Below are positions 42,846 through 51,214 of a DNA stretch of 64,000 bases, piece by piece. Both the position numbers and the translations under genes were made by a program. How positions within the stretch are numbered: the first letter of the stretch is position 1; the number at the start of each line of letters is the position of its first letter. Source of the stretch: Guptibacillus hwajinpoensis (GTDB lineage Bacteria > Bacillota > Bacilli > Bacillales > Guptibacillaceae). The stretch lies in NCBI RefSeq assembly GCF_001039475.1, contig NZ_LELK01000001.1:1452819-1516818 (forward strand). Direction: 5' to 3'. The notes under the pieces were generated by a model. It was not told where the DNA came from, did no database searches, and was given only the letters and a program-made list of their open reading frames with translations.

Positions 42846-43053
42846 ACAAAAAAATAAACCCAAACCCGCTTCGTCGTCACTATAAGTGTCTCAAAGCCCG
42901 CGTAAAAGCAGGTGGGTACCCGCACAACTACCTTTAACGTCCCGCTCAGAAGGCCGGCTTGCTATCAGTAGGTGGATGTAGAGTTCCCGGAAAACTAGCA
43001 TCGGTTTGAGACAACCGTTGTAAACGTGCGTTGCAGGAATGGGTATTGCTTAT
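42846..43053 (-). ncRNA. Candidate structured small RNA, about 205 nt
   Basis: On minus, a SigA-like promoter (TTGATT 43088-43083, 17-base spacer, TAAAGT 43065-43060) precedes a GC-richer block with no open frame. TGTCTCAAA near the 5' end pairs perfectly with TTTGAGACA near the 3' end (42887-42895), and the outermost ends (ACCCATTCCTGC... / ...GCGGGTTTGGGT) can close the molecule directly before a T-run (TTTATTTTTTTG). Internal helices include TGCTA/TAGCA. This rod-like, terminator-closed layout suits a stable regulatory RNA, perhaps 6S-like, but I cannot match it to a known family. Confidence 0.6.
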
Positions 43054-49739: not shown

Positions 49740-50345
49740 TTATTTGAATGGTGTTGCCCAAATGAGGTGGAAAATTCCCATCAGATGACTGTCTACTCTC
49801 GTTACTTCAAACCTTTCATTTACTTTTCCAATAATATCGCGATCAAGATGACAACCAATCTTTTGAGAAAACAATGGGTCTAGTTTTTCTTGCAAGCCTG
49901 CGGCTACTTTATTTGAACTAATACCGTGTTCGAATAAAAGGATCTATCCATCTGGTTTGCACCACTGTCCCATTTGCTCAAGAACAAAGTCCGGATGAGG
50001 GTACGAGCACATGGAAAGTGTTGAGACAATGGTATCGAACTGATTCTCTTGAAATACAACTTTCTCAACATCTTCTTGGATCACAGTGCAATCGAACGAA
50101 ACTTCTTTAGCTGCTTCTTTAGCATACCGGACCATTTCTGTACTGAAATCAACCGCAGTTAATGACGTTACGTTGCGATATAGTGGAAAATTTGTTCCTG
50201 TGCCAGCAGATACTTCAAGAATGTTGCCACTTGCACTTGCTAGTAATTTCTTACGGAACTTTGTATCAATCGTAGATTTATTTCTACGCTTCTCATACAA
50301 CCTTGCATGTTTATCGAATATTTTCGCTTGTTTAGAAGGGTTCAT
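49740..50345 (-). pseudogene. Class I SAM methyltransferase interrupted by one in-frame TAG
   Basis: Reading from ATG 50345 (AGGAAG upstream), the frame encodes a methyltransferase (NILEVSAGTGTNFPLY, VDFSTEM, FDTIVSTLSMC) to residue 133. It then meets TAG at 49944-49946 and continues in the same frame for 67 residues (ILLFEHGISSNKVAAG to LIWATPFK) to TAA 49740. Homologues have Lys at the stop (PGGKILLLEHG), so AAG to TAG explains it. The remainder shows no frameshift, so the lesion is recent, a sequencing error or a suppressed codon. Confidence 0.85.
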
Positions 50346-50436: not shown

Positions 50437-50468
50437 AAAGAAAGCTGCGGATATACTCCGCAGCTTTC
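50437..50468 (-). terminator. Terminator of the peroxiredoxin gene
   Basis: AAAGCTGCGG / CCGCAGCTTT stem overlapping the stop codon, followed on minus by TCTTT. Confidence 0.8.
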
Positions 50469-51072
50469 ATATCCTCCCAATATATAGCGTGTTTCGTATA
50501 ATTCCAGGCTGTCCTGGAACCCAATTAGCAGGAATTCCTTGACCTGTTTTTTCACTATATTGTAACCCTTGCATTAATCGTAAAATCTCATAAACATTCC
50601 GTCCCACTTCAACCGGGTAAACCATTTTTGTCACGATGATTCCTTCTGGATCGACAATGACTGTTCCACGATAAGTAGCACCTGAATGCTCATTAAGTAT
50701 TCGGTAAGCTCTACTGATATAGTGATTTCGATCACTCACAAGTGGATAGTTCACCTTTGACGCAGCAGGAGATACTTCCGTAAACACTTTATGAGCATAA
50801 ACACTATCGGTGCTAATTCCCAATACTTCTGTATTCATCGCCTTCAACTGAGGATAAATAGCAGCGACCGCTGCAAGTTCTGTCGGTCAAACAAATGTAA
50901 AGTCACTAGAGTAGAAAAAGAGAATTACCCATTTCCCTCGATAATCTTCAAGACTTACTTCTTTTATTTCTTTATCAATTGGATCATATGCCTGTGCTCG
51001 GAAGGAAGGGGCCAGATCGGTTGTTTGAGCACAGTTAGGTAGTTTGTCTGGTCTTTTCTGATCATTCTCCAC
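50467..51072 (-). CDS. Peroxiredoxin with UGA at the peroxidatic cysteine (candidate selenoprotein)
   Basis: A 201-residue AhpC/Prx-family protein when UGA at 50889-50887 is read through. The active-site stretch is [20 protein letters not shown], so UGA (codon 62) sits exactly where the catalytic Cys of TxxC belongs; the preceding Thr is kept. The frame continues without lesion through [15 protein letters not shown] to [13 protein letters not shown] 51072 has AGAGGTG five bases upstream; ATG 51117 is a weaker alternative. A GCAGC-GGTC-GCTGC hairpin follows the UGA at a SECIS-like distance. Alternative: a pseudogene with TGC or TGT mutated to TGA. Confidence 0.7.
50861..50874 (-). promoter_or_regulatory. 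SECIS-like hairpin downstream of the UGA codon
   Basis: On minus, stem GCAGC / GCTGC with loop GGTC, the loop starting after 17 bases from the UGA. Bacterial SECIS elements have a 4-16 bp stem, a 3-14 base loop with G in the first two positions and a 16-37 base distance; all are met. A competing GACCG/CGGTC pairing is also possible. Confidence 0.5.
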
Positions 51073-51214
51073 TGTCTCACCTCTTTTCAGAGCAGTATAT
51101 GAGCAATCAACCAGCATATTGCCTGTTTCCTTCTTTTTGTGGTGCGCTGTTTCTCTAATAGAATTGACTTATGAGCTACCTAATAAAATTTTCATAAAAC
51201 ACTTCCATAACAAA

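Follow-up and report, generated by a model that had tools for sequence, protein, structure and literature searches.

The gene described here looks like a pseudogene, but almost certainly encodes an antioxidant enzyme in which an active-site UGA stop is read as selenocysteine (Sec). It lies within the window, the 64,000-nt stretch of DNA that was analysed as a whole (C14:1452819-1516818 of the 4.26-Mb host genome, G000), and its features are listed in Table 1. The peroxiredoxin frame contains a single internal stop, the TGA of codon 62 (TFV-UGA-PTEL), which aligns with the Cys of FTFVCPTE in solved peroxiredoxins, and a profile search recovered the AhpC-TSA domain in the protein with 124.5 bits against a cut-off of 26. 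Translation and alignment thus bear out the initial annotation, which had described an otherwise intact frame with its only TGA on the peroxidatic Cys and had proposed a selenoprotein. The proposal is supported by the sel genes of the host, by conservation of the TGA and by covariation in a hairpin downstream of it, and the product is very probably a Sec-containing peroxiredoxin of the Prx1/AhpC fold, in which UGA 62 would be read as Sec by means of a SECIS element.

Table 1. Features of the selenocysteine peroxiredoxin gene, in window positions. Sec rows and Cys rows are the alignment rows with TGA (62) and with TGT or TGC (22) at the active-site codon.
Feature	Position	Strand	Evidence or comment
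Sec peroxiredoxin gene, 201 codons	50467..51072	minus	GTG start at 51072; final stop TGA 50469-50467; AhpC-TSA domain E 3e-36
In-frame UGA for peroxidatic selenocysteine (Sec62)	50887..50889	minus	84 rows: 62 TGA, 14 TGT, 8 TGC
Probable ribosome-binding site AAGAGGUGA upstream of the GTG	51077..51085	minus	suggested by reading of the sequence
Intrinsic-terminator-like hairpin directly 3' of the gene	50440..50468	minus	consensus match only
Ser55 in place of the active-site Pro (PxxxTxxC)	50908..50910	minus	Pro in 19/62 Sec rows
Ile180 at the resolving-Cys position of 2-Cys peroxiredoxins	50533..50535	minus	Cys in 0/62 Sec rows, 19/22 Cys rows
Cys14 codon, candidate replacement resolving residue	51031..51033	minus	Cys in 51/62 Sec rows, 2/22 Cys rows
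SECIS hairpin GCAGC-GGUC-GCUGC, 5 bp, 12 nt after the UGA	50861..50874	minus	98.1% of cells paired (79 distinct rows); shuffles 0/500
Apical loop xGUy, with x-y complementarity in each row read (GC, AU, CG)	50866..50869	minus	79/79 distinct rows

A contig scan for relatives of the gene yielded 181 candidate stretches, of which 157 were confirmed and the best 80 kept. The active-site codon was TGA in 59 of these best 80 of 157 loci and TGT or TGC in 21, frequencies that do not hold for peroxiredoxins at large since the loci kept are those with the highest similarity, and from L017 to L074 it was TGA without exception. The nearest named relatives, with 88-89% identity, were Bacillus sp. NTK071 and Pseudalkalibacillus (now Guptibacillus) hwajinpoensis. 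All 15 genomes of the host's family carried the TGA form, and selB was likewise found in 15/15. Across the order, the gene was detected in 41 of 299 genomes at E 1e-50 or better, 40 of them with one TGA and a single one (G190) without a stop, and in the phylum it was detected in 11 of 398 genomes at E 1e-48 or better, with TGA in all 11.

A stop in the frame would also be expected if an ordinary Cys peroxiredoxin had suffered a nonsense mutation or been misread in sequencing, and such a pseudogene would be in keeping with the nonsense TAG of the neighbouring methyltransferase, at which four of five matched relatives are open, and with the frameshifted copy of the peroxiredoxin in G006. We nevertheless consider this explanation vanishingly improbable and rejected it on the conservation of the TGA across genera: the alignment of homologues proposed in the initial annotation showed TGA at this same codon in 62 of the 84 rows read, from many genera, and TGT (14) or TGC (8) in the others, with the hairpin conserved in relatives. 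The same TGA is thus also present in DNA of relatives that other groups had sequenced. The covariation of that hairpin, the sel genes in the genome and the constraint on the frame 3' of the UGA also argue against it. Relative to the two closest relatives (L017 and L048), dN/dS was 0.03-0.06 before the UGA (45 codons) and 0.07-0.08 after it (99 codons), and in eight more distant pairs dS exceeded 1 or was not computable. Selection has acted on the frame 5' and 3' of the UGA with similar strength. The search for decaying frames among relatives gave a mixed picture, with the TGA frame in 15/15 family genomes and low dN/dS on both sides, but also a frameshift 3' of the UGA in the G006 copy (L113, G006:C1:941000-946000), whose genome retains tRNA-Sec and selB, and additional stops near the C-terminus in two of the best 80 loci (L049 and L070). 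Given these damaged copies in a few relatives, the gene is not indispensable.

The methyltransferase-like gene that follows the peroxiredoxin (49740-50345, minus strand) has its internal TAG at 49946-49944. Searches of six loci in relatives gave five matches; in four the frame stays open throughout the 195 residues that were compared, and the copy in L019 is decaying. The stop to which the initial annotation had drawn attention is thus present but unrelated to the UGA; a shared cause was rejected because the methyltransferase stop is TAG and four of the five matched relatives are open. A 6S RNA was also identified in the window (42859-43042, minus strand; Rfam RF00013, 73.6 bits).

The genome search for sel genes recommended at the outset found all four, selA, selB, selC (tRNA-Sec) and selD, in the host genome. 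The tRNA-Sec lies on the same contig as the window (C14 909320-909412; 59.4 bits against a cut-off of 47) and is adjoined by selB (352.5 bits, cut-off 242.25), with selA (SelA 572 bits) and selD (SelD 424 bits) close by. The selD frame itself carries an in-frame UGA (SSKGG-U-GCKIGPEDL) at what is presumably the active-site position of SelD. Divergent from selD is a SelW-like CxxU open reading frame (CMQ-UGA; L016:4083-4322, minus strand), which scored 69.9 bits against the SelT/W/H family model TIGR02174 (cut-off 34.2) and 72.7 bits against NF041051, under the cut-off of 88. A homologous frame in L140 has one stop after CMQ, and this open reading frame probably represents a further selenoprotein. 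With the peroxiredoxin, SelD and the SelW-like frame, the genome therefore has at least three frames in which a UGA occupies a probable redox position. A PhnC-PhnE-PhnD-like ABC transporter is encoded between selD and selB (L016:5510-7915, C14). Its binding protein fell below the cut-off of TIGR04553 ('putative selenate ABC transporter'; 188.6, cut-off 250) and below that of PhnD (206.7, cut-off 261.1). In G007, a congener of the host, the transporter likewise adjoins selB; it was not found in the five other loci fetched, and it is a candidate selenium uptake system.

The distribution of selB bears on how the UGA is decoded. A selB gene was found in 137 of the 299 genomes of the order, namely in 39 of the 40 with the TGA form versus 98 of the 259 without it (Fisher p 5e-14, with species treated as independent), and the lone TGA-form genome without a selB match (G211) has a tRNA-Sec and an assembly in 480 contigs. 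Ordinary near-cognate readthrough, or decoding of the UGA as Trp or Cys, would yield a full-length protein as well, and bacterial UGA readthrough without a SECIS is about 5-8% in an E. coli reporter according to the available part of PMC4513850. Such decoding is nonetheless very improbable in this gene and was rejected, given the association of the TGA form with selB, the use of TGA as the gene's own terminator, and the constraint on the hairpin at the RNA level; in addition, the lone TGT form stands in a genome with no match to selB or tRNA-Sec at the thresholds given below.

Decoding as Sec would depend on the hairpin that follows the UGA. The initial annotation was right about its five base pairs (GCAGC/GCTGC, loop GGTC) but not about the spacing, which is 12 nt after the UGA (15 nt from the T of the TGA) rather than 17 nt. 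The fold stability of the hairpin by itself is weak evidence and unremarkable: for a 40-nt stretch the folding energy was -8.1 kcal/mol, which 26 of 200 shuffles matched (z -1.03), and the 20-nt hairpin core reached a z of -2.43 (5/200 shuffles as good). That the arrangement of UGA and hairpin is more than chance follows from the comparison of relatives, with TGA in 59 of the best 80 loci. In a set of 84 sequences (the 62 Sec rows, 10 further rows from the phylum and 12 of the PrxU family; 79 distinct), many of them related so that the counts are not independent events, the stem and loop pair comprised 98.1% standard pairs with a covariation score of 0.371, compared with a shuffle mean of 0.129 and no shuffle of 500 as high, and slid versions of the hairpin scored at most 0.201. 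Double-change pairs and the number of pair types were not above shuffles in this set. Two of the five stem pairs are invariant, two have changed on both sides and one deviates solely by three unpaired cells. The loop x-y pair is GC in 49 distinct rows, AU in 22 and CG in 8, with no one-sided changes; x and y are the third bases of Ala and Val codons, so that each swap needs two silent changes. The SECIS of E. coli fdhF also has a GGUC loop, in which the G and U contact SelB.

Synonymous codon use in the 58 Bacillales Sec rows (the four more distant Sec rows being excluded) points in the same direction. Entropy at codons +5 to +9 was 0.89, 0.42, 0.42, 0.80 and 0.54 bits, versus pooled values of 1.93 for Ala and 1.98 for Val, and ten other mainly Ala or Val columns between -20 and +45 ranged from 1.41 to 1.88 bits. 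Low entropy also occurs elsewhere, at Ile +10, just beyond the stem (0.58 versus 1.54), and at Ser -6, +25 and +28, where the AGT/AGC pair alone is in use. The codons under the hairpin have lost their synonymous freedom, as expected of a hairpin conserved as RNA. A search of the host genome for a second site with the same stem pattern returned one match, the gene itself, and none in the control, and the SelD and SelW-like frames have stems unlike that of the peroxiredoxin. The synonymous covariation would provide a clean test of the SECIS needs of SelB in these bacteria.

Termination at the UGA could also be functional in its own right, with the gene acting as a selenium sensor that gives a 61-residue fragment if selenium is short and the enzyme if it is plentiful. 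SECIS-directed insertion is partial, at 30-40% in an E. coli reporter in the consulted part of PMC4513850, and some fragment should therefore be made. The fragment would end before the active-site helix, however, and no sign of a role for it was seen in the sequence, and we regard a sensor as highly unlikely. Production of the selenoenzyme is the preferred reading.

The sequence of the selenoenzyme suggests how it might work. An AlphaFold model built with 29 sequences (pLDDT 87.2, pTM 0.83) has Sec62 within the first turn of the helix formed by residues 61-78, with residues 1-12, at the N-terminus before Cys14, below pLDDT 50, and the first PDB matches in Foldseek were Prx3 and tryparedoxin peroxidase, with AhpC at rank 8. 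Arg135, which we take to be the active-site Arg of peroxiredoxins, was found in 62/62 Sec rows and in 84/84 rows overall, and position 59 was Thr in 61 and Ser in one of the 62 Sec rows and Thr or Ser in all 84. The active-site Pro is less constant, being present in 19/62 Sec rows, 1/10 further Sec rows of the phylum, 12/12 PrxU rows and 21/22 Cys rows (the exception being G190). The clade has therefore relaxed its active-site Pro, and since this residue is absent in 43/62 Sec rows and is Ser in the window, peroxidase activity should not be taken for granted.

At UGA 62, the stem-loop that begins 12 nt further on would recruit SelB with Sec-tRNA(Sec), and selenocysteine would be inserted in place of termination. 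The selenol, placed where helix 61-78 begins, could then attack the peroxide. Sec rows have no C-terminal resolving Cys, and the selenenic acid would therefore need an alternative route of resolution, which might involve either an external thiol or the N-terminal Cys14 that most Sec rows possess. The protein may thus be a 1-Sec peroxidase that depends for resolution on one of these two routes, and the relaxed Pro together with the missing resolving Cys raises the question of what Sec makes dispensable.

The single order genome with the gene but no TGA is informative in this respect. G190 has TGT at the active-site codon, and searches of its genome for selB (threshold E 1e-75) and tRNA-Sec (E 1e-8) found neither. 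Its hairpin stretch (GCAGC-AATG-GCCGC) could still form four of the five stem pairs, with the GU loop and closing pair lost and a different predicted fold, and its protein retains the N-terminal Cys and has neither the resolving Cys nor the active-site Pro, whose position is taken by Ser. In a phylogenetic tree it sits within the Sec clade, and a tree with the Sec rows excluding G190 was rejected (p 0.026, in a test chosen after the tree had been seen). On this comparative evidence, the most plausible reading of G190 is a Sec-to-Cys reversion accompanied by loss of the Sec trait. The 2006 table of PMC1794560, in the part available, gives no such event for peroxiredoxin. With no sel genes found, a TGT codon and a degraded hairpin, G190 would constitute a natural experiment within the clade.

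The occurrence of the TGA form in 40 of the 299 order genomes sampled makes this selenoperoxidase a recurrent trait of Bacillales. This order is not highlighted in the accessible sections of the selenoproteome reviews PMC9312934 and PMC13188914, the latter of which states there that selenoproteins are rarely retained by aerobic bacteria. The accessible parts of earlier surveys list Sec-peroxiredoxins for 78 organisms (table of PMC5029168) and count three selenoproteins, each of a different family, in Firmicutes/Bacillales (PMC1794560). Our literature searches, which covered main texts rather than supplementary tables, found no specific Bacillales Sec-peroxiredoxin.

Among known systems, PrxU (NF040737) is a close comparison. 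Of 398 genomes of the phylum, 49 gave a PrxU match, which was above the cut-off in 48 and had at least one in-frame TGA in every case. The 12 of these 49 loci that were read resemble the window clade in the TGA at the peroxidatic codon, the absence of the C-terminal resolving Cys, an N-terminal Cys, and a hairpin at the same position with an xGUy loop. PrxU differs, however, in having U-ATE where the window has U-PTE, in keeping the active-site Pro (12/12) and in its longer N-terminus; the window protein is 35-40% identical and failed the test of equivalog membership with 159.9 bits against the cut-off of 270. The type case of PrxU is reportedly the Sec peroxiredoxin of Eubacterium acidaminophilum (Soehling, 2001). 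A quick tree was built from 72 rows (28 Sec rows out of 62, 10 phylum Sec, 12 PrxU and 22 Cys, with the host's own AhpC left out). In it, PrxU grouped with the Cys forms and the window clade stood apart (SH-aLRT 91), and a joint grouping of PrxU with the window clade was not rejected (AU p 0.199). Two Desulfobacca Cys peroxiredoxins without a resolving Cys (L087 and L094) grouped beside PrxU with a support of 99 and are possibly its Cys sister.

A more ambitious, and in our judgement rather doubtful, proposal would be that Bacillales and some Clostridia share a separate Sec-peroxiredoxin lineage with a design unlike that of both Cys peroxiredoxins and PrxU. In this design, the more reactive Sec would have allowed the loss of the active-site Pro and the C-terminal resolving Cys, Cys14 and Sec62 would form a selenenylsulfide, and the SECIS would be recognised through a GU closed by a Watson-Crick pair, taken as obligatory because of the covariation in 79/79 distinct rows.

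The typical 2-Cys AhpC/Prx1 proteins, represented by the host's own copy (C14:1209632-1210150, L114), share the fold and active-site frame at 40% identity, whereas the window protein has Sec for the peroxidatic Cys, no C-terminal resolving Cys and Ser for the Pro; besides this ordinary 2-Cys AhpC, the host genome encodes a PrxQ-like protein, so named by motif. The Prx (TxxU) family, as described in the sections available of PMC9312934 and PMC13188914, has the AhpC-TSA domain, the TxxU motif and the downstream SECIS in common with the window gene, and no Bacillales member is named in those sections. Its example record in the accessible text of PMC9312934 belongs to COG1225 (Bcp), whereas the window protein is AhpC/Prx1-like, and the PxxxTxxU motif reported in that of PMC13188914 as highly conserved, Sec forms included, has Pro where the window has Ser. 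A further close case is a gene of Cytobacillus spongiae (WP_225003809.1, NZ_CP089998.1), 65% identical and with the TGA and an identical hairpin, located on a replicon of 690 kb that the deposited record describes as a plasmid. Its RefSeq coding sequence spans the UGA under a product name without selenium, and the NCBI pipeline would therefore seem to read the gene as a selenoprotein already. Sec-peroxiredoxins as such are thus already known, and the present one is distinguished, as judged from alignments and profile scores, by the lack of a resolving Cys, a relaxed active-site Pro and a position outside the PrxU model.
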